Below are positions 1 through 58,729 of a DNA stretch of 64,000 nt, piece by piece. The position numbers and the translations under genes are program-made. The DNA is from Saururus chinensis. Its lineage: Eukaryota > Streptophyta > Magnoliopsida > Piperales > Saururaceae. Numbering within the stretch: position 1 is the stretch's first letter; each line of letters opens with the position of its first letter. Where the stretch lies: assembly GCA_035235625.1 (NCBI GenBank), contig CP141140.1:40977351-41041350 (forward strand), read 5' to 3'. The notes beneath the pieces were generated by a model. It saw nothing but the letters and a program-made list of their open reading frames with translations. It did not search any database and was not told where the DNA came from.

Positions 1-595
1 TAGTCTTCCATTAACAAATCTGAAGTTAAGCCTGTTTCAAAACCCTAGTTTGTCTAGGTAGGCATGCCTCACTTAACCAATTGATCTCATAACCATAACC
101 CACCATACAACAAATCCTTATGCATTTTAACATTCTTTGTCATCCACTTAATGGCCAAAACATCTTACTCAGTAGTTATCAAACTAAGCCCCTCAGAGCC
201 AACCCCAGTTATCACCCTCTTACTTATACCTCACTTATTGTTCTTACTTTCCACTTCATAATATGTATATTATGCTTGTACAATTATGTTGTGCATTCTT
301 ACTATTTGACAATCCCCCATAAGGCACATAACCTAAGTCCCCATACTGATCATCCAATGTATGCTAGAATCTAAACAAAACTCATTTACTCCAATCCTCA
401 CTCATAACACTTACATAATCCGTCTTACGTCATACAATTACACATCCATACCAAACCTTCTATCACCTCTTACCTTCCATTGCCCATCCAGGTGCCCCAC
501 TCATATACACATATCTATTACACAAGTGTACAACCATCATATATACGTATGCCCATCACGCATAACTATAGCATACACATGGTACACATGGAAGC
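1..595. repeat. Old repeat DNA left of the gag-only element, copy A
   Basis: AT-rich, C/A-biased sequence with no credible coding potential. It is the left part of the block into which the gag-only retroelement inserted. Copies B and C carry the same sequence at 17617-18211 and 42946-43540. Short ORFs here are composition-driven and not supported as genes. Confidence 0.6.
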
Positions 596-1484
596 TGTTA
601 GCCCCTTAACTTGACGGATGCAGAAAGGGGGCGGTTGCCCCCATACATGGCAGCGGACAGCCGAGCTTTGCTAGGCAGCAGACAGCCTAAGCAGCCCCTT
701 GGGCATGGACGGATGCTGGGACAACGTGGGAGATGTTCTAGACGAGCTACTCGCCTTGCGGAGTAGGCTGGGTAGGAGTCCTTGCACGGGCAGAACTCTA
801 GCGGCGAAGCTGGGCGCTGCTTGGACTCAAGGGAGGACTCCTAAGGAGGATAGGATTCAGTTATGCTGGCTGGCTGCACTTCGTAGTTGGAGTAGGAGAC
901 CGGGCAGCAGGTTCCTAGTACAGACAGGACTCGCGCAGGCAAGCTGGTCACACTCCTAGGATGGATGGGAGTTGGAGTGGCTGGTTTCCTCGGATGGGCT
1001 GACTCTTGGAGGCAGCATGGCGATGGACTTCTAGTGGAAGATGGACTCTTGAAGGCTTCCTAAACTATGCTGGGGTAGAATGGCTTTGGGCTGAGAGTTG
1101 GACAGGGTGAGGACTCTTGTATTGGGTGGGTTTTGTACTTCTAGTGGGACTAGGATGGCTAGCCTAAGGCTGAGTCTATAAAAAGGGACGAGTAGGGCAT
1201 CCATGGCTGATTATGATCTGACTTCTTCCTGCACAGCAAACCAGGGAGAAAGAGAAGAGAGTTCTCAGCCTGGTCGTTCAGCCTTGCCCTCTCCCTATAT
1301 TGTATTTCAGTGGACAAAAATATAGCTTGGGCGGAGACCCTTGCACCAGGTAGAACTGTCTTGCTGGTTTGCTTGTGTTTCCCTTGCGCATACAAGTGGG
1401 AAGGGAAGAGAGTGGTAACTGGCTGCGCGGTGTAGTCAGGCCATCACGAGTGCAAGCACTAGGCAAAGCTTCGTGCCTGTGACA
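596..1484 (+). repeat. 5' LTR of gag-only element, copy A
   Basis: Starts TGTTAGCCCC and ends GTGACA, with a direct-repeat partner at 3179-4065. A core-promoter TATA box (tataaaaa) lies at 1177-1184, about 300 bp before the LTR end, as expected for the U3/R boundary. Confidence 0.88.
1177..1184 (+). promoter_or_regulatory. TATA box in 5' LTR, copy A
   Basis: The sequence tataaaaa in a GC-richer LTR context is conserved in all six LTR copies in the window, with slight variants. It would direct transcription of the genomic RNA from about 30 bp downstream. Confidence 0.65.
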
Positions 1485-1485
1485 G

Positions 1486-1502
1486 TTGGTTCCATTGCCA
1501 GG
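1486..1502 (+). promoter_or_regulatory. Primer binding site, tRNA-Glu-like
   Basis: Two bases after the LTR terminus TGACA comes tggttccattgcc followed by (a/g)gga. It is complementary to the 3' end of a tRNA whose acceptor strand reads CAATGGA plus A and CCA. From memory this fits plant cytosolic tRNA-Glu. Copies B and C read tggttccattgccggga and tggttccattgtcggga. Most plant Ty3 elements use initiator Met, so this is a distinguishing feature. Confidence 0.6.
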
Positions 1503-1678
1503 ATACTGAAGGAGGTGAAAGCTTTGTACGGACTCTGCGCAAGAGTTGGCTGAAGGTTTCTGAGTTGCTGGGATACCCGGGAGAGGCGGATATCTTGTGG
1601 GTTGTTGCTGGACAGATCAGAAATCCTTGCTGCATGCAGACCCTTCCTTGATGAGTTGCTGGAAACATAGGGAACTTG

Positions 1679-3058
1679 ATGGTAGGTTCGAGGCTGACTT
1701 GCATGGCCGAGCTCGAGGCAAAGGTTGATGCGATGACCACAGGGAATGGGGTGTTGGCTGAAGTCCAGAACACGTTGCACAACATCAACAAGTGTTTGGC
1801 CCTCTTCGACCAGCGAGTGTCCTTGCTGGAAGTTGCACCACACCTTGACGAGTCTCAGGAAGAAGGCAATCCAGCTGATGGGGCAGCATGTCTCACCACA
1901 TTAGCGGCTAATGTGGCTGCGACGGCGGACTACCTTAAGCAGCAAGTGCAACAGGTTGAGGAGACAGCGGTAGCAAAGTTGGGCGAGTTGGTGGATGAAG
2001 TGTTGTTGCTGAAACAGGCAGTCCTCAATACTTCATCACGAGATGGGGGCGAGTCCACATCTCAGCAGGTTACGAAGAAGACAAAGGTCCCTGAACCGAA
2101 GGCGCATGCTGGGACGTGAGGCGCCAAGGAGATAGGGAACTTCCTTTGGGATATGGAAAGCTACTTCACGCTGGTCCATACTCAAAGGGAGGAGAAGGTT
2201 ACCGTGGTAGTGATGTGCCTAGAGGGGGATGCAAAGTTGTGGTGGCGGATACGGATGGAGGATGATGCAGTTGTTGGTCTGCCAAAAATAGGAACGTGGG
2301 ATACGTTCAAGAGGGAGTTGCAGGCATAATTCCTTCCCAAAAATGTGTCTTGGATGGCTCGAGAGGCATTGAGGAACCTCAGGCATACGGGGGCAGCCCA
2401 GGACTACGTTAAGGAGTTTCAGTCCCTGATTTTGGGTGTGACGAACATGAGGGAGGATGACAAGCTATTCTACTTCGTGGCAGGTTTGCAGACTTGGGCT
2501 CAGAACGAGCTGAGACAGAGGGAAGTGGAGGACCTTCCGGCAGCAATTGCAACGGCTGATAGCTTGGTGGATTTCAAGCAAACTCCCGCTGAGCCAGCGT
2601 AGAAGAATGGGGAAGAGAAGGCATTGAACATGGAGAACACTAAGGGTGCTAATAGTGGCAAAGTGAAGGGCAGCGAGCAGACTGTCCGGCCTAATAGAAG
2701 TAGTAGCCGCTTCATATGCGATGGGCCGCACTGTGCCAAGGAGTTTCCGAAACGGGAAAGGCTGAATGCACTTGTCGTTGAAGAGGAGAAGGTGGAATCT
2801 GAGCATGAGGAGGTAGCCCGGATGAGTCCCTTGCAGCAAATTGGATGTGTTCGGTTGATGGAGTCCCCGGTTGAGGGGGCAGCTTCGAGTCATTGGATTC
2901 GAAGGAAGGAGGGGAGAGGACTCCCCAAGCCTTGCCTGATCGAAGCAGCTAAGGGGCAGACTGATGCAGAGGTTCGCAGGATGGTGGCAGCAGGTGTTGC
3001 TCAAACCTGGCAGAAGGATGACTTAGGTTGGGCGGAACTTGACTTGGCGGTGGTGTGA
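1679..3058 (+). pseudogene. gag: Retrotransposon gag polyprotein pseudogene, copy A
   Basis: One reading frame runs from ATG 1679 to TGA 3056-3058, about 459 codons, broken by three in-frame stops: TGA 2117-2119, TAA 2327-2329 and TAG 2600-2602. Domains in order: a coiled-coil-prone N-terminal part beginning MAELEAKVDAM; a retrotransposon gag capsid-like domain (about 2120-2600) with LEGDAKLWW, TWDTFKREL, ALRNLRHTG and VKEFQSLIL; and a C-terminal remnant of a zinc knuckle, where CDGPHCAKEFPKRERLNAL keeps the spacing of a CCHC motif but has lost residues. It would package RNA in virus-like particles. All three stops recur in copy B and two in copy C, so gag was dead before the segmental duplication. 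Confidence 0.85.
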
Positions 3059-3178
3059 TGCGAAGTGTTGGTTTCTTTCTGGCGGGTTCAGCGAGGCGGA
3101 TGGTTGGAGTGCTTCAATTGGTGCACCTTGGAAGTTGGGGCTTCGACGAGGGCGTCGAAGAATCAAGTGCGGGAGGCC

Positions 3179-4065
3179 TGTTAGCCCCTTAACTTGACGG
3201 GTGTGGAAAGGGGGCTGTACCCCCATACTTGGAAGGGGACAGACAAGCTTTGTTAGGCAGCGGACAGCCTAGGCACCCCCTTGGGCATGGACGGATGCTG
3301 GGACAGCGCGGGAGATGTTCCGGACGAGCTACTCGCCTTGCGGAGCAGGCTGGGTAGGAGTCCTTGCACAGGTGGGACTCTAGCGGCGAATCTGGGTGTT
3401 GCTTGGACTTAGGGGAGGACTCCCAAGGAGGATAGGATTGAGTTATGCTGGCTGGCTGCACTCCTAGTTGGAGTAGGAGACCGGGCAGCAGGTTCCTAGT
3501 ACAGACAGGACTCGCACAGGCAGGCTGGTCACACTCCTAGGACGGATGGGAGTTGGAGTGGCTGGTTTCCTACAATGGGCTGACTCTTGGAGGCAGCATG
3601 GCGATGGACTTCTAGCGGAAGATGGACGTTTGAAGGCTTCCTAAACTATGCCGGGGCGGAATGGCTTTGGGCTGAGAGTTGGACAAGGTGAGGACTCTTG
3701 TATTGGGTGGGTTTTGTACTTCTAGTGGGACTAGGACGGCCAGCCTAAGGCTGAGTCTGTAAAAACGGATGAGTAGGGTGGCCATGGCTGATTATGATCT
3801 GATTTCTTCCTGCACAGCGAACCAGGGAGCAAGAGAAGAGAGTTCTCAGCCTTGTTGTTTAGCCTTGCCCTCTCCCTATATTGTATTTCATTGGATAGAA
3901 ATATAGCTTGGGCGGAGACCCTTGCACCAGGTCGGACCGTGTTGCTATTTTTCTTGTGTTTCCCTTGCACATATGAGTGGGAAAGGAAGAGTGTGGTTGC
4001 TGGCTATGCGGTGTAGTTAGGCCATCACAAGTGCGAATGCTAGGCAAAACTTCGTGCCCGTGACA
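3179..4065 (+). repeat. 3' LTR of gag-only element, copy A
   Basis: Direct repeat of the 5' LTR, TGTTAGCCCC to TGACA, 887 bp. It differs from its partner by many scattered substitutions (for example ggttgccccc versus gtacccccat near the start), so the insertion is old. Confidence 0.87.
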
Positions 4066-4896
4066 ATAGCCATCACTAGCATACACATGGTATACATACA
4101 TTAAACTTACTTTTAGCTCACATGCATGTCATATACATTTCAAATATACCATCATTTATCATTTTTCACTCTTATGTCATCCAATTCGATAATCACATAA
4201 TACCCAAAGTATGAAATCGTACAATCCTAACTTGATGATACACATTTAAATATATTTAAATTATGAGTTCAAAGCTTGCCTACCTCTTAATCTATGACAT
4301 TTGATGGAAAGCACATGATGGTGGCAGCATTAGTGACAGAGTTGGTGGTGAAAAATATTGCCTAGTTAAGAGAACTGTTGACCCGAGGTTTAGTGAGTGC
4401 TAGAAGTAATCATGGCAATACTGGGTGACATAAGTCTATGTGGAAAAATCCCATATCCATGGTGGTGCACTAGTGGTGGCCGGGAGAAAAGTCATACCAA
4501 TGAAATGGCAAGTGCCATTGGAAACCAAGGTGGACTAATTAAAGGTTAGCTAGCGAATAAGTAGTAATTGGCTAGCCACAAGATGTTGAAATCAGCCACA
4601 AATAGCACCCAACGAAGACGATTTCGGTTCGACTATGGCCCAGAAAGGGGTGAAGCATAGGGTGATGCTCAAGGATATAGAAGAGGTGGAAGAGGGCACT
4701 GAGGATCCAATCTAGTATGTGGAGGAGCCACCTACGCATTGGTGGTGCAAAAATCACACATAAACCTTAAATCGCATGCGCAAACACTTGCACATGCGGC
4801 AAAGAGGACCACATGAGGGGTGATGGGTTGGACGGTGGCGGGCTAGAGAAGAAAAGGGTGACATGGCCAAAGGTGATGGTCGACAAAGATTACCCT
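4066..4896. repeat. Old repeat DNA right of the gag-only element, copy A
   Basis: Continuation of the block interrupted by the gag-only element. It is followed by a GC-richer part with no open reading frame of note. Copies B and C carry the same at 21677-22508 and 47009-47840. No gene is visible. Confidence 0.55.
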
Positions 4897-7800
4897 TATC
4901 ACACCCCGATACCTACTTGAACCAAGCCGAAACCTATCCAAGGGACAGTCGAAGCACACGGGGGTGACATGGTTCGTTTAACATAGGAAAAGACTTTAGA
5001 CCCTCTATTTGGTGAATTTCACATATAGAGTTGCGCACATCTTAAACCTTTGTGAAAGTTAAATAAAGAAAATAAAAGTCGACTTCAACTCTGAACTTGT
5101 TCACAAGTCATATACCCGACACACATGGCTGGAATAAAAAAGAATAAAACAAATCTAAAAATATAAGAGATACCCGTGTCTACTCCCATGCTCTCCCTGA
5201 CTATTCCTCATACAGAGGATCTTGGTTAACTACATGTCATGCCATGTAGCCCTAAAACAAAACACAGAAAGAGGGGTGAGTAAAACTCAATAAGTTTTTA
5301 TCTATCAAGATAGTAAACTCAAAATCACCACAAATATTTCACTTAGAATTCATCACTTCATGCATTCATCATGAGACATTTGCATAACCTATGAATGACT
5401 ACTCATCATACATATACTCATAATATCATCAACATATCTCCTGCATACCACTTTACATGGCATATCATATCAAATATCATCTCATCCACGATTCATTTCC
5501 AATGCATTCATTCATCCTACATACTATCTTACATATACTTATCACAATATCATCTCATTTATGATTCATTTCCAATGCATTCATTTATCCTGCATACTAT
5601 TTAACATAGTATATCACAATATCATCTCATTTATGGTTCATTTCCAATGCTTTCATTCATCTTGCATACTATTCCACATTATCATCTCATTCATGATCCA
5701 TCATCATCGCATACATTCACCCTGCATAAGAGTGTCTCAACATACTAATCCATAATCATACATATCAAATCATGTCCAAATGTGTTACATAATCTCAAAT
5801 TTTCCTACACAACTTGTGCAACTTGTGCAGCCTGGGCATAATAATATCTCATACACATGAATCTTCAACAGCATCAAAATGACTCAACTCAACCTAGAGA
5901 GGATCCATGTTCCAATCATGAACTCAAATCGAAATCATGTTCTTTCGAACCAACTAATTTACATAAGCCTACAATCGATTAATCTAGCACTTAACCCCAC
6001 ACCATTGTATCCAATCAATCAACCACGGCTAATCTCAATAATTTTTCATTCATAAATCTATTTAATGATGCATGCAACATGGTACATACGTGGGCAATAC
6101 ATATATGAATCCTAATTAATGAAACGTGCTCCCATTAGCCCTACATACATCATTTATAATCATAATATCATCCATTACGATAATCACCCCCCACATATGT
6201 GGATACATGATAGAAACATTCAATTCTAAGCATATGGACATGCATTGTAAATAACCCATCATCATACGATACACATGCTCTTTAGCATTTAATCATGGCT
6301 CCTTACTAAAATCATAATTGAAAACCATCGAGAAATATGATTCAATTCAAGTGCAGCCTCAAGCTAAACTTAGATAAGCATATTCATACCACACTTAAAG
6401 CTAGACATGGCACCATCATTTACCTATAATTTAATCATGATATGTGAAGGCATATAATTTCATTATCATGCAATAACTTTTTTAGAATCATACTAAAATA
6501 TAATGAATCATTCAATCAAGGATTAAGGACATGAATTTAAAGCATGCTTAACCGAATGACATAAAAAACAACTTAACATTTAAACATTCATCATAGCCTC
6601 CAACATCAAATTTATACCCGTCCAATAGTTTTACGTAGCAGATATTACTTATGAAAGTTATAAGAAATGATACTTAAGAGTAAAAACATGAAAATGAGCA
6701 TAATAAATAAAAATAGCCAAATTGCACTATTGGCATTGGAACACCTTGCAAGGCCGTTCGAATGCCTGGCCATTCAATTGGCCTACCTGGCCGTTCAATC
6801 GCCAAAACATATAGTTCTGGTTCGTCTTCTTTCCCTCAAACCAAAAACCGAAACTTCACATAAATATCATAAACCTTCAAATCTTGCTCCCAATCATCAT
6901 AATAATGAAATCCTTGATTAAGAAACAGTAGATCTAGCCATTTACAACAAAAAACACAAAGAAATCATAAAAAAGATTAAGCTTTTCTAAATCTGTCATT
7001 AAAGCTCAACTCAATGGAAACCCACTTAAAACTCCAATCTGAAATCATAGACCCATTTAGGACAAAATCAATTACCCTCAGATTCATCAATGCTTGCTTA
7101 AATTAGATTAAAAATACTTAAATCTACTAAAAATTCATAGTCTAGGGTTTATTGAGTTCAAAAACAAATTCCTTTCATAAGGGTTTGAAATAGAGGTTCA
7201 AATCAGTACCGTGTTGGGTAGAAATCAAGATTACACCTTGTCAAAAGAAGAGATTCGGAAAGTTTAGGAGAATCCCTATGAAATTAGTTAAAGATGAGGC
7301 TAATCTTTACCTTAATTACCTTTCCTTCTTTGAAAATGGGTATTAGGGCTCCTATGATCCAGATTCCAGCCCTTCCCAATTGGGAAAGTGGTTGAGCCTT
7401 TCTATTTATAAAAAGCTTTGGGGTAGACCTAACAAATAGGTGGGGTAAAAATAGAGTTTGACATTAAACGTGGAAAACTTACTAATTTTAAGCTCGAATT
7501 GATCTCCAAAACTTTTGAAGCATTTAATTATTGTCTTAAGATGTTGTTAGGATCATTTGGGACCTATCATCCTAATTTCACATGTGGGTCCCGCCCCCTA
7601 ACTTTTTGGGAAAATAAATTAGAGATTTTGAAAATTCCAGAGAAATTTTTGTTGACTTATATTAGCATAAAAACCATCTTAGTGAAGAAAACTTGACCCA
7701 AAACCTTTGTTAACTACTTAAAATTTGAAAAAAAGTTAAAATTGATCAAATTTAACATAAAACCACACAATAGCAATTAAATAAAAATTAATTAAACTGG

Positions 7801-8967
7801 TTAGAGCTTAGAGATCTTACAATCTCAGTGCCGAGGTAGGCCAACTAGAGGCTAATAGTGTCTGGCGGTGGTACACTGATACAAGGGCAAAAAGTAGCAC
7901 TATCTATAGCGTGGCCAAACACATAAAGGGAAGAAGGGTAGATATAAGGCTGGCCAAGAGTTGGTAGGTTGGTCCTCTCTGTGCCAAGGCCGATCAGCCA
8001 AAATTGGCTCACAACCGTAGTTAAATGGAACTCCAGTGGCTAATTCGCTCTACCGACAAAAAGAAAAATAGGGGTGAGGGGGAATGACGTGCCGTGAGAA
8101 GGCTAAGAGGGTGTAATGGACGTTGTGGCCAGCTCCACAACTCTTGTGGGAGCAAGGATGAGCCAAAGCCAGTGGAGTACAACAGCTTTCAATGACGAAA
8201 GTCCTCTAGCTATCCAAACTAGAGAAAAAGAGGACAACAATGAAAACAAAGGGGTGTAAGGTACTGATGGAGGAGACAAGGAGGGGTCGCAGGTGTACTT
8301 AGGTTGGGTAGGGTGGCCCACAGTTGTCGTCAAGCGGTGGTGGAACCAAGGGTGGCCGGTCACCCCTTGCCTGGTAGAAAACATGAAATAGAGAGTGAGA
8401 GGCAATGCTGGAATAGGCTGGGGGCCGGAGGAGCTAGAATTAGGCCATGTGGGGGCATACCTTGCCATCACTAGGCCGGGGTGGAACCCATGGCCATGCG
8501 TAGAGGTAGTGTTCAAAACAAAGTGGGGAAGAGTTTGACCAAGGAAAAAGTGTAACTGGAATGGGGTTAATCAAATTGGGTTGGGGCAGTGCTCGGGAGG
8601 TGGCCTCACCATCTCTAGGTTGAGACCGACCAGTAGCAAGTCAGTAGCGCCACCTCCAGCTCAGACAAATAGGAAAGGGGTGCTTTTGAAATATTTTGGA
8701 ATGGGCTCAACCGATCCCGATCCTTATGTTTTTTTTTTCTCTTCTCCTTTCTTTTCAGTTTTCTCTTTTTCTTTTCATCTTTTTTTTGTGCCGGAAACCT
8801 CCGTGGCGCACTGAGGCCCAACAGCAATGACTAAGGCCCATGTACAACTCTATTTGTACAAATACCAGGGTCAAATACATGAAAAAAATATGCTAAAGCA
8901 TATATTTTCTTGCAAAAGAAGATTAGAAAAATAGCAGGAAAATAATAAAAATACTAGGGACATTACA
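4897..8967 (-). repeat. Long Ty3/Gypsy-type LTR-like block, minus strand, copy A
   Basis: Read on the minus strand the block opens with TGTAATGTCCCTAGTATT at 8967 and closes with GGTATCGGGGTGTGATA at 4897. Both resemble ends of plant Ty3/Gypsy LTRs (TGTAA.. start, GGGGTGTGACA end). A minus-strand TATA-like taaatag lies near 7410. It contains an 80-bp tandem repeat (5455-5715) and a polypyrimidine run near 8730-8790. No primer binding site adjoins 4897 and no target duplication was found, so solo LTR status is an inference. Confidence 0.5.
5455..5715. repeat. Tandem repeat, unit about 75-80 bp, copy A
   Basis: Three to four imperfect units, each with aatatcatctcatttatg, ttcatttccaatgc and cattcat..ctgcatactatt in order. 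The repeat recurs at about 23070-23315 and 48395-48655. Open frames across it (such as 5395-5604) simply reflect the repeat. Confidence 0.75.
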
Positions 8968-9746
8968 TTAAAACTACCCTACTTCAACTTTTGATAGATA
9001 TTTTTTTAGTTTTAGAGCTCTATAATCATGAAACCCATGCCATGACATCTAGCATGCTTGATTTATATAAAATTGTCTTTTGAACCACCTAAATCGGACT
9101 TAAAATGGCATAGAAATAGAGAAATGAAGTTTGAGTAATGTATCAATAGAAGAAGGGGTAGAAAACAAGAAAAAACCAGATTTCTTGCTCTCCCATGCTA
9201 TTTATAGGGGTGCACGACTGGCAGTGCGAGTCACGTAATGCGCATTTGATGAGTGACGATGTTGCATGCTGCTTCATGGACCACACCAAGTGGCACGGTT
9301 TGGCGGTGCCGTGCGTGATTAATTAATATTATTAGTTTTTGTTTTTCAATTTAAAAAACACTTGAAATTTGAAAATATTGCAGTTTGTTACCCAAAATTC
9401 TAATTCATACGTTCTTGGTACCATTGAGTTCATATTGAGCCTTCCGAAACCAGACCCTATATGTGTAGGTTTTCCTGCACTTTTGAAGTAGGTCCCACCC
9501 ATGGGACCAGCTTCTCGAAGTTATAAAATAGGACGTGGATGTCCATTATTCACAATTAAGGACTCAGTGCACTCGTTGAGTAAAAACATATGAATAAATA
9601 AAATCGACCCATTTTGCGATTAAAGACTCATTGCCCTCAACCATAACAATAAGAAAACTCGTTGAGTTAAAACTTATGAATAAAAAAATTTGAATAAAAA
9701 CTTTTTTAAATAGAAAAAATCTTACTAGGAATTCAGGGTCGTTACA
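8968..9746 (-). repeat. Second minus-strand Ty3-type LTR head and flank, copy A
   Basis: Read from 9746 on the minus strand the sequence begins TGTAACGACCCTGAATTCC, a classic plant Ty3/Gypsy LTR start. It continues through a segment shared with other LTR heads in the window (the gtaggtttt..cccatgggaccagcttctcga stretch near 9460-9520). The far end is not defined. The 8968-9350 part shows LTR-like features (gctatttataggggtgc near 9198) but no gene. Confidence 0.5.
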
Positions 9747-10610
9747 TATTAATCCTATGAGATTTAGACATGCAGTTGCATACTAGCAGAGTATATGATT
9801 AATATATTACTTATAATTATATATACATGTAATTTATGATGGTTGTGATCAAGGCAACAAATATGATAATTACAACATTCAATGGAGAACATTGTTGGAT
9901 TTAGACTTAATTTTTAATTTATTTTAATTTTTCTTATTAAATTACTACTTACAATGGGTCTGAATTCTTGCTAATATTGATTGAGCAGGTTTGGGGTGAC
10001 AATTTAACCTACCAGATCCAATGAATACAAGCCCAAACTATATATATAAAACCAATATATTTTGTTAAGTGAAATACACTAATTATAAAACAATATAAAA
10101 AACGAGATAAAAGAAAAGAAAAGAGATACAGAAGAGCCTTTCCTATTGGCTGCTTTAGACTTAAGTCATCACATATTGAGGAATATTTGAAATCTAAAAT
10201 GCAAGTAGTTCCTATACTAACAACTTCTCCCCAATTTTGCCAAGAACACGGGACTCGCATGTATCAGAGAGACTCACATGTTTCCACTCAATATGGAATG
10301 GATAGTGACAAGATAAACTAGCATTGATTAAACGAGCAAGTTAGGGATGACAATTTGACCTTCTGGACCCTACATAGGTTGGTAATCCTGCATTTTTCCG
10401 GTAGGCACTGCCCATAGGACTAGCTTCTCGAGAATATAACTTGGGTCCTGGATGTCCCTTTTTTGCCAGTAAAGACTCATTACATTTGTTTTTCTGTGCT
10501 CAACCATAACGACAAGAAAACTCATTGGGTAAAAACTTATAAATAATTAAAGTTGACTAAAATAAATATTAAATCAAGAAAATCTTACTTGAAATTTAGG
10601 GTCATTAAAA
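9747..10610. repeat. TPS-upstream tandem module 1, copy A
   Basis: An 864-bp unit equal to module 1 of copies B (26651-27497) and C (52686-53531). It begins tattaatcctatgagattt, contains caggtttggggtgacaattt and tgaggaatatttgaaat, and ends in a Ty3-type LTR head (minus strand) at gggtcattaaa. A second unit starts at 10611 but is cut after 30 bp by the copy A deletion. Confidence 0.75.
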
Positions 10611-10639
10611 TTTAATCCTATGTGATTTGGACTCGCTGT

Positions 10640-10641
10640 TG
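10640..10641. other. Deletion junction: TPS interval missing from copy A
   Basis: Left of the junction matches B up to 27528 (actcgctgttg). Right of it matches B from 35951 (tcccatcaatctcag). The 8,422 bp between them in copy B, with upstream modules 2 and 3, the TPS gene and the TPS relic, are absent. Both B breakpoints share the dinucleotide tg, consistent with end joining. Copy C supports the long arrangement over the part it covers, so deletion in A is favoured over insertion in B and C. Confidence 0.85.
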
Positions 10642-10666
10642 TCCCATCAATCTCAGCCTAACATCA

Positions 10667-12129
10667 GTTGGCAGTCCTACATAGGTTGAACATGCTACCC
10701 CGATGCTATGGATGATGTGTTATTGGAATTGATGAGATTAATGATCATGATGAAGTAACAATGTTATCGTATTGAGTTGAGTATTTGATGTGCCAAATGA
10801 ATGATTTGGCAAATGTTGTTGCTCGCTAATATCATGCCAAGGCTGAGGCCATGGTTGAGCATTACTTTTTTGATGCTTATAGTTATCCCTTTAATACACC
10901 CGATTGTCATAATATTTGCAGTCCAACTCTTATTGTGCAATAGGAGTATTATTTTAATCTCCCTTCGATATATGATGAAGAGGCATATAAAATATTGTGT
11001 GATGTACTTGCGCTAGAATCTAGACTAGGGGATGATGGGCAATTTCTACATGCAAAGCAAGAACAAGAGTTGTCGTTGGAGAGGATTGCAAGAGATTCTC
11101 AGCCAAAAACATTTTCCACATGCTGGATGTTTAAGCTATTGTCTCCTTATCTTGGTCATAACAACTTCATAGAATTATCTTATTTTATTCATTTTGAAAA
11201 TCGTCGGGACCTTCAATTCATGATGCTTGATATTCAAGTTAATGCATGGTGTGCTATGATAAAGTTTGAATTGTCTATTACGATGAGAATTCATATAGTT
11301 GATATGTATTGTTAAAATAAGAAAATTCATATTGCTCACTTGATGTTTGATATAATGCTTCAATTGAATATTGTATGTTGGAACTCAAAAACATGTGGTG
11401 AACAAGATTTAGAGATTTTGTGTGATATGAGGAAAGAACAAACTTGTCTGATGGTTAAATCACAAACTGGATGTTGTTAAGTTTATATCACCTAAAACTT
11501 GCCTCATGTGTTTTTGCCATCACAGTATTATATTTGCATGGTTTACATTGACCATGATATGATAGATCCTATTCAGAAAGTGGTTGGTTTTTCCACAAGA
11601 AGTGGTTATTATGTGCATGGGTGTGATCAAATTGATGTTCTTCCTAGTGAGTTTTGTAAAACTGCTTTTATTGTCTTCCACATGGGTTGATTACTACATA
11701 GATTATATGTGTTTACCAGGACACTAGGCAAATGATGTTTCTTGTTATGGAATCTTATTTGAAACTTCCAAAACAACAAGGCTAACATTCTATTATATGT
11801 GCATTTTTTCTTCTCGGTATTCCTAGTTTGCAAGTTTTCAACGAGACAATTGGCTGAGTATTCCATGCATGTCACTTCATCCCTTGCAAACTCGAGGACT
11901 AGTTATATGAGCCAAGATAAATCTATATTTGAAGCAAATTGATAAGAAGGTTTGCAACAGAAGATTAAGATAATCTTGGAATTGATGATACAAATCCATT
12001 GGCTTTGAGAAAGATGGACAATCGGGATATAAATTATAGGTTTTACAATATTTTGTGTTGCAATCAATGAGCATGTAAGGGCATTCCCATACTTTGAACA
12101 ATTGAACGCTCACTCGAGTTCATTTTGAT
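10667..12129 (+). pseudogene. Unrecognised coding-like relic between direct repeats, copy A
   Basis: Coding-like sequence is visible on the plus strand in pieces that change frame: a part with YHAKAEAMVEHYFFDAY (about 10826-10880) and then CDVLALESRLGDDGQFLHAK (from about 10998) in an open frame to 11315. I do not recognise a family. Hydrophilic, charged composition in 10998-11110 looks like real ancestral coding sequence, while the following aromatic-rich stretch may be random. It is bounded by a 515-bp direct repeat, so it may be the interior of a small LTR element. The B counterpart is 35976-37440. Confidence 0.35.
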
Positions 12130-14080: not shown

Positions 14081-14129
14081 AAACGAATTTCATCTTCGCA
14101 ATTCACCAAAAAACATTCTTCAAAAGACA

Positions 14130-39398: not shown

Positions 39399-39460
39399 TT
39401 CTTCCCCCTTTAAACGAATTTCATCTTCGCAATTCACCAAAAAACATTCTTCAAAAGACA

Positions 39461-46000: not shown

Positions 46001-46120
46001 TGCGAAGTGTTGGCTTCTTTCTGGCGGGTTCAGCAAGGCGGATGGTTGAAGTGCTTCAATCGGTGCACTTGGGAAGTTGGGGCTTGGACGAGGGCGTCGA
46101 AGAATCAAGTGCGGGAGGCC

Positions 46121-47840: not shown

Positions 47841-50800
47841 TATCACACCCCGATACCTACCCGAACCAAGTCGCAACCTGTCGAAGGGACAGTCGAAGCA
47901 CACGGGGATGACATGGTTCGTTTAACATAGGAAAAGACTTTAGACCCTCTATTTGGTGAATTTCACATATAGAGTTGCGCACATCCTAAACCTTTGTGAA
48001 AGTTAAATAAGGAAAATAAAAGTCGACTTCAACTCTGAACTTGTTCACAAGTCATATACCCGACACACATGGCTGGAATAAAAAAGAATTAAACAAATCT
48101 AAAAATATAAGAGATACCCGTGTCTACTCCCATGCTCTCCCTAACTATTCCTCATACAGAGGATCTTAGTTAACTACATGTCATGCCATGTAGCCCCAAA
48201 ACAAAACACAGAAAGAGGGGTGAGTAAAACTCAATAAGTTTTTATATGTCAAGAGAGTAAATTCAAAATCACCACAAATATTTCACTTAGAATTCATCAC
48301 ATCATGCATTCATCATGAGACATTTGCATAACCTATGCATGACTACTCATCATACATATACTCATAATATCATCAACATATCTCCTGCATACCACTTTAC
48401 ATGGCATATCATATCAAATATCATCTCATCCACGATTCATTTCCAATGCATTCATTCATCCTACATACTATCTTACATAGTATATCACAATATCATCTCA
48501 TTTATGATTCATTTCCACTGCATTCATTTATCCTGCATAGTATTTAACATAGTATATCACAATATCATCTCATTTATGATTCATTTCCAATGCTTTCATT
48601 CATCTTGCATACTATTCCACATTATCATCTCATTCATGATCCATCATCATCGCATACATTCACCCTGCATAAGAGTGTCTCAACATACTAATCCATAATC
48701 ATACATATCAAACCATGTCCAAATGTGTTACATAATCTCAAATTTCCCTACACAACTTGTGCAACTTCTGCAGCCTGGGCATAATATTATCTCATACACA
48801 TGAATCATCAACCGCATCAAAATGACTCAGCTCAACCTAGAGAGGATCCATGTTCCAATCGTGAACTCAAATCGAAATAATGTTTTTTCGGACTAACTAA
48901 TTTCCATAAGCCTACAATCGATTAATCTGGCACGTAATCCCACACCATTGTATCCAATCAATCAACCATGGCTAATCTAAATAATTTTTCATTCATAAAT
49001 CCATTTCATGATGCATGCAACATGGTACATACGTGGGCAATACATATATGAATCATAATTAATGAAACGTGCTCCCATCAGCCCTACATGCATCATTTAT
49101 AATCATAATATCATCCATTACGATAATCACCCCCCACATATGTGTATACATGATAGAAACATTGAATTATAAGCATATGGACATGCATTGTAAATAACCC
49201 ATCATCATACGACACACATGCTCTTTAGCATTTAATCATGGCTCCTTACTAAAATCATAATTGAAAACCATCGACAAATATGATTCAATTCAAGTGCAGC
49301 CACAAGCTAAACTTAGATAAGCATATTCATACCACACTTAAAGCTAGACATGGCACCATCATTTACCTATAATTTAATCATGATATGTGAAGGCATATAA
49401 TTCCATTATCATGCTATAACTTTTTTAGAATCATACTAAAATATAATGAATCATTCAATCAAGGATTAAAGACATGAATTGAAAGCATGCTTAACCGAAT
49501 GACATAAAAAACAACTTAACACTTAAACATTCATCATAGCCTCCAACATCAAATTCATACCCTTCCAATAGTTTTACGTAGCAGATATTACTTATCAAAG
49601 TTATAAGAAATGATACTTAAGAGTAAAAACATGAAAATGAGCATAATAAATAAAAATAGCCAAATTGCACTATTGGCATTAGAACACCTTGCAAGGCCAT
49701 TCGAATGCTTGGCCGTTTAATTGGCCTACCTGGCCGTTCGATCGCCAAAACATATATTTCTGGTTCGTCTTCTTTCCCTCAAACCAAAAACCGAAACTTC
49801 ACATAAATATCATAAACCTTCAAATCTCGCTCCCAATCATCATAATAATGAAATCCTTGATTAAGAAATAGTAGATTTAGCCATTTACAACAAAAAACAC
49901 AAAGAAATCATAAGAAAGATTAAGCTTTTCTAAATCTGTCATTAAAGCTCAACTCCATGGAAACCCACTTAAAACTCCAATCTGAAATCATAGACCCATT
50001 TAGGACAAAATCAATTACCCTCAGATTCATCAATGCTTGCTTAAATTAGATTAAAAATACTTAAATCTACTAAAAATTCATAGTATAGGGTTTATTGAGT
50101 TCAAAAACAAATTCCTTTGATAAGGGTTTGAAATAGAGGTTCAAATCAGTACCTTGTTGGGTAGAAATCAAGATTACACCTTGTCAAAAGAAGAGATTCG
50201 GAAAGTTTAGGAGAATCCCTATGAAATTAGTTAAAGATGAGGCTAATCTTTACCTTAATTACCTTTCCTTCTTTAAAAATGGGTATTAAGGCTTCTAAGA
50301 TCTAGATTCCAGCCCTTCCCAATTGGGAAAGTGGTTGAGCCTTTCTATTTATAGAAAGCTTTGGGGTAGACCTAACAAATAGGTGGGGTAAAAATAGAGT
50401 TTGACATTAAACATGGAAAACTTACTAATTTTAAGCTCAAATTGATCTCCAAAAATTTTGAAGCATTTAATTATTGTCTTAAGATGTTAGGATCATTTGG
50501 GACCTATCATCCTAATTTCACATGTGGGTCCCGCCCCCTAACTTTTTGGGGAAATAAAATAGAGATTTTGAAAATTCCAGAAAAATTTCTGTTGACTTAT
50601 ATTAACATAAAAACCATCTTAGTGAAGAAAATTTGACCCAAAACCTTTGTTAACTACTTAAAATTTGAAAATAAGTTAAAATTGATCAAATTTAACATTA
50701 AACTACACAATAGCAATTAAATAAAAATTAATTAAACTGGTTAGAGCTTAGAGATCTTACAATCTCAGTGCCGAGGTAGGCCGACTAGAGGCTAATCGTG

Positions 50801-51903
50801 TCTGGCGGTGGTACACTGATAAAAGGGCAAAAAGTAGCACTATCTATAGCGTGGCCAAACACATAAAGGGAAGAAGGGTAGATATAAGGCTGGCCAAGAG
50901 TTGGTAGGTTGGTCCTCTTTGTGCCAAGGCCGATCAGCCAAAATTGGCTCACAACCGTAGTTAAATGGAACTCCGGTGGCTAGTTCGCTCTACCGAAAAA
51001 AAGAAAAATAGGGGCGAGGGGGAATGACGTGCCGTGAGAAGGCTAAGAGGGTGTAATGGACGTCGTGGCCAGCTCCACAACTCTTGTGGGAGCAAGGATG
51101 AGCCAAAGCCAGTGGAGTACAACAACTTTCAATGACGAAAGTCCTCCAGCTATCCAAACTAGGGAAAAAGAGGACAACAATGAAAACAAAGGGGTGTAAG
51201 CTACTGATGGAGGAGACAAGGAGGGGTCGGAGGCGTACTTAGGTTGGGTAGGGTGGCCCACAGTTGTCAACAGGCGGGGGTGGAACCAAGGGTGGCCGGT
51301 CACCCCTTGCCTGGTAGAAAACATGAAATAGAGAGCGAGAGGCAATGCTGGAATAGGCTGGGGGCCGGAGGAGCTAGAATTAGGCCATGTGGGGGCATAC
51401 CTTGCCATCACTAGGCCGGGGTGGAACCCATGGCCATGCGTAGAGGTAGTGTTCAAAACAAAGTGGGGAAGAGTTTGACCAAGGAAAAAGTGTAACTGGA
51501 ATGGGGTTAATCAAATTGGGGTGGGGCAATGTTCGGGAGGCGGCCTCACCATCGCTAGGTCAAGACCGACTGGTAGCAAGTCGGTAGCGCCACCTCCAAC
51601 TCAGACAAATAGGAAAGGGGTGCTTTTGAAATATTTTGGAACGGGCTCAACTGATCCCGATCCTTTTTTTTTTTCTCTTCTCCTTTCTTTTCAGTTTTAT
51701 CTTTTTCTTTTCATCTTTTTTTTGTGCCGGAAACCTCCATGGCGCACTAAGGCCCAACAGCAATGACTAAGGCCCATGTCCAACTCTATGTGTACAAATA
51801 CCAAGGTCAAATACATGAAAAAAATATGCTAAAGCATATATTTTCTTGCAAAAAAAGATTAGAAAAATAGCAGAAAAATAATAAAAATACTAGGGACATT
51901 ACA
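47841..51903 (-). repeat. Long Ty3/Gypsy-type LTR-like block, minus strand, copy C
   Basis: Counterpart of 4897-8967. On the minus strand it starts TGTAATGTCCCTAGTATT at 51903 and ends GGGGTGTGATA at 47841, 4,063 bp. The 75-80 bp tandem repeat lies at 48395-48655. Confidence 0.5.
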
Positions 51904-52685
51904 TTAAAACTCCCCTACCTCAACTTTTGATAGCGAATTTTTTAGTTTTAGAGCTCTATAATCATGAAACCCATGCCATGACATCTGGCATGCTTAATTT
52001 ATATAAAATTGTCTTTTGAACCACCTAAATTGGAGTTAAAATGGCATAGAAATAGAGAAATGAAGTTTGAGTAATGTATCAATAGAAGAAGGGGTAGAAA
52101 ACAAGAATAAACCAGATTTCTTGCTCTCCCATGCTATTTATAGGGGTGCACGGCTGGCAGTGCGAGTCACGTAATGCGCATTTAATGAGCGACGATGTTG
52201 CATGCTGCTTCAAGGACCACACCAAGTGGCACGGTTTGGCGGTGCCGTGAGTGATTAATTAATATTATTAGTTTTTGTTTTTCAATTTAAAAAACACTTG
52301 AAATTTGAAAATATTGCAGTTTGTTACCCAAAATTCTAATTCATGCGTTCTTGGTACCATTGAGTTCATATTGATAAGCCTTCCGAAACCAAACCCTATA
52401 TGTGTAGGTTTTCCTGCACTTTTCAAGTAGGTCCCACCCATGGGACCAGCTTCTCGAAGTTATAAAATAGGACGTGGATGTCCATTATTCACAATTAAGG
52501 ACTCAGTGCACTCGTTGAGTAAAAACATACGAATAAATAAAATCGACCCATTTTGCGATTAAAGACTCATTGCCCTCAACCATAACAAAAAGAAAACTCG
52601 TTCAATTAAAACTTATGAATAAAAAAATTTGAATAAAAACTTTTTTAAATAGAAAAAATCTTACTAGAAATTCAGGGTCGTTACA
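51904..52685 (-). repeat. Second minus-strand Ty3-type LTR head and flank, copy C
   Basis: LTR head TGTAACGACCCTGAATTTC at 52685 on the minus strand. Counterpart of 8968-9746. Confidence 0.5.
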
Positions 52686-53531
52686 TATTAATCCTATGAG
52701 ATTTGGACTTGCAGTTGCATACTAGGAGAGTATATGATTAATATATTACTTATAATTATATATACATGTAATTTATGATGGTTGTGATCAAGGCAACAAA
52801 TATGATAATTACAACATTCAATGGAGAACATTGTTGGATTTAGACTTAATTTTTAATTTATTTTAATTTTTCTTATTAAATTACTACTTACAATGCGTCT
52901 GAATTCTTGCTAATATTGATTGAACAGGTTTGGGGTGACAATTTAACCTACCAGATCCTATGAATACAAGCCCAAACTATATATATAAAACCAATATAGT
53001 TTGTTAAGTGAAATACACTAATTATAAAACAATATAAAAAACGAGATAAAAGAAAAGAAAAGAGATACAGAAGAGCCTTTCCTATTGGCTGCTTTAGACT
53101 TAAGTCATCACATATTGAGGAATATTTGAAATCTGAAATGCATGTAGTTCCTATACTAACAACTTCTTCCCGATTTTGCCAAGAACACGAGACTCGCATG
53201 TATCAGAGAGACTCACATGTTTTCACTAAATATGGAATGGATAGTGACAAGATAAACTAGCATTGATTAAACGAGCAAGTTAGGGATGACAATTTGACCT
53301 TCTGGACCCTACATAGGATGGTAATCCTGCATTTTTCCTGTCGGCACTGCCCATAGGACTAGCTTCTCGAGATTATAACTTGGGTCCTGGATGTCCCTTT
53401 TTTGTGAGTAAAGACTCATTACACTTGTTTTTCTGTGCTCAACCATAACGACAAGAAAACTCGTTGGGTAAAAACTTATTAAAATAAATATTAAATCAAG
53501 AAAATCTTACTTGAAATTTAGGGTCATTAAA
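52686..53531. repeat. TPS-upstream tandem module 1, copy C
   Basis: 846 bp, same landmarks as 26651-27497. Confidence 0.78.
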
Positions 53532-54370
53532 ATTTAATCCTATGTGATTAGGACTCGCTGTTGCCTACTAGGAGTGTATATAATTAATATATTACAAGCA
53601 TGTAATTCATGGCAACAAATATAATAATTACAACATTCATGGGAGAACATTGTTGTATTTGTACTTTATTTTTAGTTTTTATTTTTTCTCATCAATTACT
53701 ATTTACATGAATAATGTGTCTGAATTCTTGCTAGTATTTATTGAACAGGTTTGGGGTGACAATTGAACCTACTAGATCCAAAGAAAACCTGCTCCACCAA
53801 TGTATATAAAACCAATATAGTTTGTTAAGCGAAATACACTAATTATAAAATAAAATAAAAATGAAAAGAAAAAAGAAGAGATATAGAAGATCCTTTCCTA
53901 TTCTCTGCTTTATACCTTCTTAGATTCATCACATATTGAGGAATATTTGAAATATGAAATGCAAGTAGTTCCTATATTAACAAATTCGGCCAATTTTCCC
54001 ATAACATGTGACTCATACGTATGAGCAAGACTCACATGTTTTGCAAGGACTATGGAAACGATAGTGATATACACAAAACTTATATTGATAAACGAGCAAG
54101 TTAGGATGGCAATTTGAGCTACAAGACCCTTCATAAGTAGGTTGTCCGCCATTTTTCGAGTGGGCCCAACCCATTGGACCATCTTCTCAAGGTCATAACT
54201 TAGGACCCGAATATCCCTTTGTTGCGATTAAAGACTCATTCCACTCATTTTTCATAGCTCAAACATAACGACAAAATAACTTGTTCAATAAAAAACTTTT
54301 GAATAATAAAACTTTACCAAAAATAATTTTTACATCAAGAAAATCTTACTAAAAATTCAAGGTCATTACA
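53532..54370. repeat. TPS-upstream tandem module 2, copy C
   Basis: 839 bp, same landmarks as 27498-28336. Confidence 0.78.
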
Positions 54371-55077
54371 AACTAATCGTGAGCGATTTGGACTCGTAGT
54401 TGACCACTAGGATTGTATATGATTAATATATTACATACGATTATAAGTTTTATTAAGTGAAATACATTAATTATAAAACAATATATAAAAATAATGAAAA
54501 GAAATGACATACACTGAACCAATGCCTATCCTACTAGCTGGTTTACAAGCATATGTGACACAGGTGAATCGGCTGGACTCACATGTTTTGCAGGGAATTA
54601 GGGAAAGATAGTAATACACACCCAAAGAATTTGTCCAACAAAACTCTTTTATTGGGTTTTGGTTGGACAAAATATGCGGGCCTCTCAAGAGGCTTACTTT
54701 GGTCCACATGTTATGTCCATTCAAAACTCTATTAAAGGGTTTGCTTGGACAAATTGCTTAGGTAATTATCATTTTCACTATGGGATGGCATTGATGAGGT
54801 TTTGTCAAATTTCACCTTTGAGGGAATAAATTATCGGTTTTGAGAGCAACGTCGGAATTGACGGCTACCAAACTCACCTAACAAGTGCTGGTTGTTTCAA
54901 AATTCTAACTTTAGAACGCACTATGCATCACCCCCATTTTTTTTCAAGGCAGCCCCACATCAATGGTTGTCATGTTGTAAACAACCGTGAAAATTTTTAT
55001 AGGGATATAAAACTGCTCTTTTTTTTTTAAGGGGGAGCACCACAATCCAATACTGGTATAATTATCATTACTAAGCC
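54371..55077 (+). promoter_or_regulatory. TPS promoter-proximal region with partial module 3, copy C
   Basis: The partial third module runs to about 54620 and the rest is unique upstream sequence. It retains tttgcagggaattagggaa (about 54587) and acaagtgctggttgtttc (about 54880), both missing from copy B. Confidence 0.6.
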
Positions 55078-55084
55078 TATATAA
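55078..55084 (+). promoter_or_regulatory. TATA box of intact TPS gene, copy C
   Basis: tatataa in agcctatataaggga, 89 bp before the preferred ATG at 55167 and only 20 bp before the upstream in-frame ATG at 55098. Confidence 0.7.
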
Positions 55085-55166
55085 GGGATGAGGAATTATG
55101 TTTTCTGTCAATCTTGATCCCACTGAAACACATATTCCTATACGTCAAGCATATACACTACTGAGA

Positions 55167-57881
55167 ATGGCGGCAGTTGGCATGGTCTGTCTCGCTTCTT
55201 CTGGTCAATCACAAAATGGCCCAACGCTAGAGATTGCCCGTCGATCAGCTTCTTTTCATCCAAATGTTTGGGGAGATTACTTTGTTAATCTCTCTCAGGA
55301 TGATACAGTAAGAATGCAGATGAAGAATAAGAATGTTGAATGTCTTAGTTGATCTATTTGCTTATGTTATGTGTCACAATGATGCAGAAGATTGACACAT
55401 GGAGTAAAAGGTCCGATGAGCTTAGAGAGGAAGTGCTTAAGATGTTGAGCATCACAGAGGGGCTTGAGAAACTTGATTTGATTGATATCTGTTATCACCT
55501 TGGAATCTCATACCACTTTGTGGAAGTGATAAATGAAGCACTGGAGAAAATATACACTACTTATGAAGATGATACCTCCAAGGACAACCTCTATTCCCTT
55601 GCCCTCCGATTTCGTCTACTAAGACAACATGGATTTAATGTGTCTTCAAGTAATAAACACTCATTACTTGATGTTAATTTTAGTTACTAATAGATCATAT
55701 ATATTTTTTAAAAGATGTTTTGTGTTAAAGTCTTAGCACGATTTGCTTATTCAGCTACATTTGTTTTAAAAAAAATAAAACAAACACTACATAGCGAGTA
55801 TAATTTATATGATGACACACTAATGTGAGGTGGTCAATATGTATGGTAGTTCATAAAATTTAATATATTTTTTTATGTTAGAACAATTAGTATGTCATCT
55901 AGTGCAATATGTTATTTCATTATGACTTTCTTAGGTGTGATTGTATCATACATTGGTTATTAAATAGATGCATTTACCAACTTCAAGGAGGATAGTGGCA
56001 GCTTCCAAGAGAATGTAGCTTCAGATGTGATGGGTCTTCTAAGTCTGTATGAAGCATCTTTTGTGGGAACAAGGGAAGACCAAATACTTGATGGAGCCAT
56101 TACATTCACTACAAAACATCTTAGAGCCGCTTTACCTCATATAGACTCACTTCTTGCAAAAAGAGTAGCACACTCTTTAGAACTTCCTTCGCACAAGAGA
56201 CTGCAAAGGCTGGAAGCAAGGTATTTCATCTCATTATATGAGCAAGATAAGGCTCACAATGAGGTGTTGCTTGAGTTTGCAAAGATGGATTACAACATTC
56301 TGCAGGCGTTGCACCAAAGAGAGATAAGGGAGGTCACAAAGTCAGTACCACTATCACATGCACATTTTTTACTTTCCCTTGTTGAATTAGGATTTTGCCC
56401 TCCTTACCATTCTAATGTGCAGGTGGTGGAAGGACTTGAACCTTGTGGGAAAGATGAATTTTGCAAGGGACCGTGTGACAGAGTGCTACTTTTGGCCATT
56501 AGGTGCTTACTTTGAGCCACAACATTCTCGGGGAAGAAAGTATGTTGCAAAAATAATGGCCATTACTTCAGTAATTGACGACTTATACGATGTCTATGGA
56601 ACTATGGATGAGCTCCAGCAATTCACTGACGTTGTACACAAGTATAAATTACATCCACAATTTACCGCTCTCATATTCTTCAACTACATAATTAACCTAT
56701 GCCTCCAATTAATGTTATGATGCCATGCATAACACATTGGTAGGTTGTAATCATATTATGTCATGAACAATTTTTTATCTCTCATCTCTCTATATCATTT
56801 TCCATCTCATACTCTCTCTGAAGATGCTATTCTTACATTCTACCCAAAATATACTTGCCTTGGCTATTTCAATTATTTTAAAAAAAGATTTCATTATTCC
56901 TCTACCTCTTGCCAATGTTCATCTTTAGATGGGATGCCATGGCCAAAGAAAGTCTTCCAGAATACGTGAAGCCCTTGTTTGAGGCTCTCATTGGCTGTTT
57001 GAAAGATTTTGAAGAGGAATTGGCACCAGAAGGAAATGCTTATCGTGTACAGTACTTGAAAGAAGCTGTAAGATAAGTTTAACAAATTTTATCTATGAGA
57101 TATTTGCTTAATTTTATATTACTTGATAGATCATTGTAAAAATTATTGTTGTTATTATCCTCATTACTTATATTGTTGCTTCAACCATGGTGGCTGATAT
57201 TGTCATTTGTTACCACTGTAGATGCAAGACTTGTGCAGAGAATATTTAGTAGAAGCAAAATGGTATTACAAAGGATACGTTCCACGAGTAAATGAATACT
57301 TGCGTTGTGCTGAAATTACATGCGGCTACCCAATGGTAATTACTGCTTGCTGCATTGGAGTTGGCCGAGTTGTAAGTAAGGAAGTTCTGCAATGGATCAA
57401 ATCATACCCTAAGTACATCAAAGATACATGTCATCTTTGTCGAATTGTAGATGATATTAAGAGTACTAAGGTTAATGATCTCCTAATCCTTTTCTTTAAC
57501 ACTTTTGATTCATCTGATAGTAAATTTACTACACTTCAGCTGATTTTTGTGCTCTTGACTATAAAATTGCACATTTGAAATGTCTAGTTTGAGCAAGTGA
57601 GAGGCCATGTTGCATCTGTCGTCGAGTGTTATGTGAACGAATACAATTGCTCTGAGGAGGTGGCTCTGGAGAAGCTTCGTGACACTGTCAATCTCACATG
57701 GAAAGATATAAACGAGTCATTCCTGAGACCCACTCCGTTTCCGATGTCCATCATGATGATAATCCAAAATCTATCACGTGTCATGGAAATATTGTACCAG
57801 TTTGGAGATGGATACACTTTCTCGGATGGGGAGACAAAGGAACGTCTCACTGCCTTGTTGGTGGATCCAATTCCCATTTAA
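55167..57881 (+). CDS. Terpene synthase, TPS-a-like (probable sesquiterpene synthase), intact
   Basis: Seven exons: 55167-55307, 55388-55649, 55968-56340, 56423-56641, 56929-57067, 57222-57470, 57588-57881. All introns are GT-AG and the total is 558 residues. Coding exon sizes 262, 373, 219, 139, 249 and 294 for exons 2-7 match the conserved angiosperm TPS architecture. N-terminal helical domain: RRX8W (RRSASFHPNVW, 25-35). C-terminal class I domain: RDR (274-276), DDLYD (311-315) and DDIKSTKFE (455-463), which bind Mg2+ and diphosphate for ionisation of a prenyl diphosphate. Only 24 residues precede RRX8W, so there is no plastid transit peptide and cytosolic use of farnesyl diphosphate is inferred. 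The start is the ATG at 55167 because the ATG at 55098 lies too close to the TATA box. The product cannot be predicted. The usual Arg before WWKDL is Lys here. Confidence 0.92.
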
Positions 57882-58388
57882 AGTTATCAATAGTTCGAGG
57901 TCCATTTCAGTGGCTACGGTGTGCATGCGGCACCATCTACTTTGCAATTTATGCATCTTCTCTATTATGTCTTTTAGTCTATGTTACTTGTTATGTGTTT
58001 ATTGTTAAATAATGGGATGAAGTTGGGCTGAGACCAACTTGTGTTGGTTTTATTTTGTGTGTTGATGGGTTTGTTTGGTTTAGGTTGAAGCCCATTTCCG
58101 TGTGGGTAATAAATCTTTGTATAAATATTTGCCAATGAATGGAATAATCCCAAATTATAACTGAGAATGAACTAGGATGGGATAATACCAAATAGGTTTT
58201 ACCATGTTTTTCACTGTGATAGATCAACATGGAAGGGGCGATCAATCAGGTTCATCTCTGTTAAATGGTGGACATTCTAGTACTTCAAACAATTGATCAT
58301 TGCCTTGACCGATCAACCGTTCTACCTCAATCGATTGATCAACATGCCAATTGTTAGATCATTTAATGTTCAAAACAAATACTTGAAT
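57882..58388. other. 3' flank of intact TPS with putative polyadenylation signal
   Basis: AATAAA at 58108-58113 is about 230 bp after the stop codon and is a plausible polyadenylation signal. From about 58263 the sequence resembles the start of direct repeats R1/R2, with several cgatca/tgatcg motifs. Confidence 0.5.
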
Positions 58389-58729
58389 TGTGACGGCCCA
58401 TAAAATCCTTACTCATTAAAGTAACATGTCCAAAATAAAATAATAAGTGCCAAGGATTACTGTGCATGAAGTTTGTAATTTATACAGAGATTTATCTTTA
58501 GGAATCTTGTGCCTATAAACATTAGTCAACATAAGTAATTACAAGACTTTAACTACAGTAGTAGAACGTGGATAGTTCATCTAGAAAAATTTTCTTCTTT
58601 CACCTCCACCTTTGCGGCAACACCTGTAGAATCTTGTGCTGAGTGAGTATATTTAAACTCAGTATGTTGTGCTAAATTCTATAAACATGCTAATTAAGAG
58701 TATGTATAAAATACTCATAATCTTAGCAT
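58389..58729. repeat. LTR-like segment at the right end of copy C
   Basis: Begins tgtgacggcccataaaatcc, an LTR-terminus-like sequence also at 32162, and passes into tgctaaattctataaacatg shared with the Copia-associated block. Homology to copy B stops at 58729. Confidence 0.5.

Follow-up and report, generated by a model that had tools for sequence, protein, structure and literature searches.

How does a tandem array come to hold a plant gene that is intact in one copy, interrupted by a stop codon in another and absent from the third? The question is raised by a 64-kb stretch of the genome of Saururus chinensis (assembly GCA_035235625.1, contig CP141140.1, positions 40,977,351 to 41,041,350; hereafter the window, to which all coordinates refer), for which a first-pass annotation had described a ~25-kb segment in three copies carrying a terpene synthase (TPS) gene in successive states of decay. 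We refer to these copies as A, B and C (units U0, U1 and U2, respectively; Table 1). The array itself, its origin by unequal crossing-over and the states of its genes, as set out below, make up a joint reading that we consider well founded and, on balance, probably correct.

Structure of the array and its junctions

Comparison of the window with itself by blastn, a check suggested along with the first description, yielded long co-linear matches and established that the three tandem copies are real, the regions 1–10,641, 17,617–27,528 and 42,946–53,563 being co-linear with one another. Identity is 95.8% between A and C (1–10,641 versus 42,946–53,563) and 95.7% between A and B (1–8,669 versus 17,617–26,259), and the B and C segments match at 96.4% (10,640–26,259 versus 35,949–51,609), 97.2% (26,255–30,589 versus 52,290–56,672) and 98.0% (30,585–32,526 versus 56,812–58,755). 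Kilobase-long matches of 95.7–98.0% between segments far exceed chance. The number of copies, the period of 25,329 bp between B and C (17,617 to 42,946) and the end of the array at 58,729 all stand as first described, but the ~25-kb period does not extend to copy A: the step from A to B measures 17,616 bp, as no counterpart of B 27,529–35,948 is present at 10,640. It should be noted that the apparent start of a copy at base 1 is the edge of the window; the junctions seen in the sequence lie at 10,640, 32,502 and 58,729.

The junction between B and C points to a mechanism that the first-pass annotation had overlooked. The sequence left of 32,502 is the TPS 3′ flank as found in copy C; that on the right belongs to a full-length copy of a repeat, which we call R. 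Homology between B and C stops at 58,729, where a 73-bp piece of R ends. The four R copies detected in the window have in common a 34-bp identical block, and it is this block that terminates at both 32,502 and 58,729. Two bases before the block, copy C and the junction have T and the inner R copies have C, a difference that places the exchange inside the 34-bp block. Because the junction and the right end of the array fall in the same block of R, unequal crossing-over between R copies is the likely mechanism, with 32,503–58,729 (26.2 kb) as the unit; the direct repeats characteristic of such an event are present both at the unit junction and at the visible (right) end of the array. A crossover between the TPS genes themselves was ruled out, given that the junction lies 0.85 kb beyond the stop of the B gene and there is no chimeric TPS.

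The junction between A and B is of a different kind. When aligned with both of its parental sites, these were found to share ~2 bp, unlike the R-based junction between B and C. Such a junction would fit either an 8.4-kb deletion or the edge of a 17.6-kb tandem duplication, two possibilities to which we return below.

Terpene synthase genes in three states

As annotated, the gene of copy C is intact: seven exons separated by GT/AG introns join into 558 codons plus a stop. Pfam recognises both the N-terminal domain (PF01397, E 1.5e-48, 165.4 bits against a cut-off of 37.6) and the metal-binding C-terminal domain (PF03936, E 6.5e-89, 297.8 bits against a cut-off of 26.3), and the predicted protein contains RDR at 274, DDLYD at 311 and DDIKSTKFE at 455. 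The metal-binding motifs of plant class I terpene synthases are DDxxD and NSE/DTE; with both domains and both motifs, the C protein qualifies as a member of this class. Genes of the TPS-a subfamily have seven exons, in agreement with the count observed here, and their products have no plastid transit peptide; the C protein has an RR pair at 25–26, judged by eye to be near the N terminus. The top matches of the C protein in PDB are angiosperm sesquiterpene synthases, with near full-length similarity to (-)-cyperene synthase (7xkw, E 9.4e-156) and (+)-delta-cadinene synthase (3g4d, E 4.4e-151), a likeness from which product specificity is not readable. Judging from these relatives, the C gene most likely encodes a cytosolic sesquiterpene synthase. 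In a passage of PMC4464248 on TPS gene structure, exon number is given as 7–13 depending on the subfamily.

A protein homology search returned 871 matches, of which the best 120 were listed; every listed match for which a species is given comes from a plant, and 112 of the listed proteins were used for the tree and for the counts of residues per alignment column. The best E-value among the listed matches belongs to a protein of Magnolia sinica (P0001, 48%). In the tree, the B and C genes join Aristolochia fimbriata H6P81_015644 (P0002) with a support of 0.994, within a group containing Magnolia and Tasmannia. This placement points to a magnoliid as the probable host, perhaps a member of Piperales. 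At 51% identity to the TPS of the window, the Aristolochia protein is the closest homologue in the tree and too distant for a gene of the same species. In this tree, made up of proteins from that list, the B and C genes nest among magnoliid germacrene-D-synthase-like proteins.

Copy B carries the nonsense codon reported for it. Its splice sites are preserved, and comparison of the coding sequence with that of C revealed no indel and a total of 23 substitutions affecting 22 codons, among them the change from CAG to TAG at codon 532. From the column of this codon onward, at least 20 residues are present in 111 of the 112 homologues, and the residues lost in B include D535 (kept in 111 of 112) and Y537 (kept in 106), both of which we take to be part of the loop closing over the active site. 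Given their loss, the product of the B gene is probably inactive. The ratio of nonsynonymous to synonymous divergence (dN/dS) between B and C ranges from 0.32 (NG86, 0.0092/0.0286) to 0.53 (YN00, 0.0106/0.0202) when the stop column is excluded.

A third TPS copy, near the start of unit C, had escaped notice. It is an old pseudogene that starts in intron 2, ~0.1 kb after repeat R, with exons 1 and 2 absent, and displays gaps in exons 3, 5, 6 and 7, an in-frame stop in exon 4 and frame breaks in the later exons. Its coding part reaches to ~35,094, beyond which lies 3′ flank, and its divergence from the C gene is 16% for exons and 14% for introns.

The absence of a TPS from copy A was confirmed: tblastn with the C protein gave no match in 1–17,616 at E values up to 10. 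Outside the TPS copies, tblastn gave just two other matches, at 39,154 (E 8.6) and 62,757–62,816 (E 6.6), which were attributed to chance and not counted as TPS remnants. DNA of the TPS 3′ flank, rather than of the gene, gives short matches at 12,107–12,161 (E 1e-3), 37,418–37,472 (E 1e-4) and 59,332–59,384 (E 5e-3). Upstream of the TPS, tandemly repeated units of ~0.86–0.91 kb, diverged to ~75% identity with one another, occupy 26,353–28,411 and 52,393–54,445 and, in partial form, 9449–10,641 in copy A.

A shared retroelement and the order of the copies

All three copies contain, at the same place, an element of ~3.5 kb flanked by long terminal repeats (LTRs). The 5′ and 3′ LTRs within a copy are 9.0–9.7% different and the same LTR differs by 4.1–5.5% between copies; since divergence within copies is the larger, the element was inserted before the amplification. 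In copy C, a single frame of the element holds both a gag match that falls under the Pfam cut-off (E 6.5e-4) and a weak Arc capsid domain. Inspection of the flanks of the element revealed no convincing target-site duplications. Immediately downstream of the 5′ LTR of copy B, at 19100–19115, lies the sequence TTGGTTCCATTGCCGG, which we take to resemble a mutated tRNA-Asp primer site; such a site would imply a + orientation for the element, in agreement with the weak gag frame. The earlier statement that repeats occupy identical positions in the copies thus holds for the LTR element, but does not hold throughout: 685 bp common to A and C are absent from B, and a 17-bp stretch near A 10,541 is private to A.

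The copies are nearly equidistant (A–B 3.75%, A–C 3.95%, B–C 3.64%), and counts of sites at which one copy is the odd one out do not differ (196/167/186, p 0.31). When 5′ LTRs were rooted with 3′ LTRs and vice versa, after removal of 3 multi-state sites and of 14 at which the outgroup was split, shared derived states numbered six for B+C, three for A+B and two for A+C. The approximately unbiased (AU) test retains all three orders (B+C p 0.77, A+B p 0.34, A+C p 0.057); the proportion obtained by resampling of estimated log-likelihoods (RELL) excludes A+C. Thus, of the succession of decay that had been proposed, amplification and gene inactivation stand, but the order C > B > A, which had been read from the state of the gene, is unproven after the LTR-rooted counts and the topology test, and the proposed ordering of the duplications by alignment and a tree of the copies left every order in play.

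Within the unit, every gap of 4 bp or longer in the alignment of B with C lies in B (7 of 7; two-sided sign test, p 0.016). An eighth gap, of 4 bp and also in B, is located at the end of homology and was left out, so that this count replaces a former one of 8 of 8 (p 0.008). Three of the gaps could be polarised as losses in B, those of 21 bp and 685 bp via copy A and that of 144 bp via the pseudogene. Substitutions between B and C are least frequent in the TPS gene (1.3%), reach 1.8–2.0% on either side of it and 2.35–4.7% further left, with the highest value in the LTR element (4.7%); per 500 bp, divergence ranges from 0.2 to 5.2%. Either gene conversion or a higher mutation rate in the transposon may underlie this gradient, and the two may have acted together. 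At a substitution rate of ~6.5e-9 per site and year, a divergence of 1.3–4% corresponds to roughly 1–3 million years, a figure to be taken as a rough guide.

Competing histories of the array

We propose that R copies on sister or homologous chromosomes paired out of register and recombined, and that the crossover would have duplicated 26 kb with a working TPS near the end of the unit and an already dead one near its start. The third copy would have arisen in a further round, at almost the same time. Subsequently, C would have kept its open frame, B would have acquired the nonsense codon plus several deletions, and A would have lost its TPS, along with the pseudogene of the next unit, through one 8.4-kb deletion. 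Existing tandem arrays triplicate easily; for this reason, and because B has deletions of its own, we lean slightly towards a deletion in A. An alternative that we consider a serious possibility, if somewhat short of probable, is that A never had a TPS: two overlapping tandem duplications with differing ends, one of 26.2 kb via repeat R that included the TPS and one of 17.6 kb between the equivalents of B 35,949 and C 53,563 that did not, would have occurred nearly simultaneously, the junction at 10,640 being formed by end joining or template switching. The absence of the gene would then mark the edge of a duplication and not decay. The ~2 bp shared at 10,640 are what a 17.6-kb tandem duplication leaves, tblastn listed no TPS protein remnant in A, and this history takes two events against the three of the former. 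Overlapping duplications nevertheless predict A and B to be sisters, yet it is B and C (3.64%), not A and B (3.75%), that are closest, and A+B share three derived LTR sites compared to six for B+C, with the caveat that the AU p value of 0.34 does not reject A+B.

Two further readings concern the copies as such. The copies may be older than TPS divergence suggests if the B and C genes were homogenised by gene conversion, which would fit either view of copy A; we think this rather unlikely. In its favour, TPS introns (11/894, 1.23%) are no more diverged between B and C than exons (23/1,677, 1.37%), and transversions are fewer in the TPS and its 3′ side (~15/3,441) than in non-LTR sequence left of 26,255 (144/12,138, derived from rounded rates; p 1.6e-4), the comparison excluding the LTR element and 26,255–29,083 (0.99% transversions). 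Lower mutation in genic DNA would, however, yield the same pattern, and inspection of 500-bp windows by eye showed no sharp tract ends. That allelic or homoeologous haplotypes, or a single copy, were wrongly placed end to end during assembly strikes us as highly improbable: each of the three copies carries private substitutions and indels, the window contains zero N and hence no scaffold gap, the B/C junction lies inside a repeat that is also found at the end of the array, and B–C divergence varies widely along the unit.

Several observations nonetheless weigh against unequal crossing-over followed by gene loss as a complete account. With a single junction in R preserved and the left end of the array lying beyond the window, the crossover is represented by one junction and one end; neither the rooted LTR sites nor the topology test decides the order of the copies; and gene conversion at a later stage may have obscured the history of the array. 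Nor is C simply the ancestral gene, as indicated by two unusual residues: Ser at position 209, found in none of the 112 homologues (56 Ile, 48 Leu), where B has Leu, and Phe at position 506, shared with 15 of the 112, in place of the Cys seen in B and in 60 of the homologues. Finally, "intact" as applied to C refers to a predicted reading frame, and the enzyme activity of its product is putative.

Comparison with known terpene synthase clusters

Unequal crossing-over and gene conversion are both named by the authors of PMC3017849 where they discuss the TPS-a cluster on grapevine chromosome 18, which, like the array described here, combines tandem TPS genes (of the TPS-a subfamily in grapevine), pseudogenes and traces of retrotransposons. 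The two differ in scale, with 45 loci in 690 kb as given in that description versus three TPS copies in ~58 kb, and in that the likely crossover repeat is identifiable here. The TPS arrays of Eucalyptus, in the sections of PMC4464248 that treat them, are likewise dense, limited to a single subfamily, rich in pseudogenes and ascribed to unequal crossing-over, although they are larger than the present one; in a wider survey, a passage on grapevine attributes most of its partial TPS genes to tandem duplication (PMC6681836). Since pseudogene-rich TPS clusters are well described, the S. chinensis array is well preserved but ordinary. Its value lies in bringing together, within 58 kb, a likely recombination repeat, unit boundaries, an LTR clock and an intact, a freshly stopped and an old dead gene, which makes it a clean teaching case for the turnover of plant TPS families and leaves the general view unchanged. 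It also carries a caution, namely that when one copy of an array lacks a gene, this is not necessarily the result of loss.

Coordinates and other features of the window

Table 1. Features of the terpene synthase array, in window coordinates.
Feature	Coordinates	Strand	Remarks
Copy A (U0)	1-10640	+	no TPS; truncated left by window start, right by junction 10,640
Copy B (U1)	10640-32502	+	extends to recombination junction J
Copy C (U2)	32503-58729	+	26,227 bp; sole complete unit in window
A/B junction	10639-10640		left flank corresponds to B 27,528 and C 53,563, right flank to B 35,949
Repeat R in copy B	14533-15434	+	
Repeat R at B/C junction	32430-33251	+	first 73 bp contain junction J (~32,502)
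Repeat R in copy C	39864-40765	+	
73-bp piece of R, right end of array	58657-58729	+	partner site of junction J; 95.9% identical to 14,533-14,605
LTR element of copy A	596-4065	+	~890-bp LTRs; TGTTAG start, TGACA end
LTR element of copy B	18212-21676	+	same position
LTR element of copy C	43541-47008	+	same position; weak gag match at 45,063-45,269
TPS of copy B, stop-inactivated	29084-31654	+	GT/AG splice sites; aligned with C gene
B TPS exons 1-4	29084-29224, 29305-29566, 29885-30257, 30340-30558	+	
B TPS exons 5-7	30702-30840, 30995-31243, 31361-31654	+	
TAG at codon 532 of B TPS	31571-31573	+	CAG in C; removes last 27 of 558 residues
Third TPS, old pseudogene	33348-35550	+	PF03936 in 33,882-34,169, E 4.7e-18
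TPS of copy C, intact frame	55167-57881	+	558 aa; seven exons
C TPS exons 1-4	55167-55307, 55388-55649, 55968-56340, 56423-56641	+	
C TPS exons 5-7	56929-57067, 57222-57470, 57588-57881	+	

No second gene family was detected in the unit when 113 of the 134 open reading frames with 55 codons or more from position 32,400 on were scanned against Pfam (E up to 0.01), and the only hits were to the terpene synthase families and the weak gag and Arc capsid domains; of the frames before 32,400, three were scanned. Matches to Nop52, DUF724, Post_transc_reg and NDC10_II at laxer thresholds (E 0.03–0.09) were judged to be due to chance. In the window, no RNA genes reached Rfam gathering scores, a sub-threshold match to SCARNA7 (E 0.067) being likewise attributed to chance, and ARAGORN found no tRNA.

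A minisatellite with units of 72 bp and 60 bp is present in all three copies (5433–5728, 23,047–23,341 and 48,377–48,671). Past the right end of the array, by ~270 bp, lies a (TA)60 tract (58,998–59,117), and the right flank also contains a large inverted repeat (60,662–61,569 and 62,267–63,139; 77.6% identity over 917 aligned positions), which is perhaps a foldback element.

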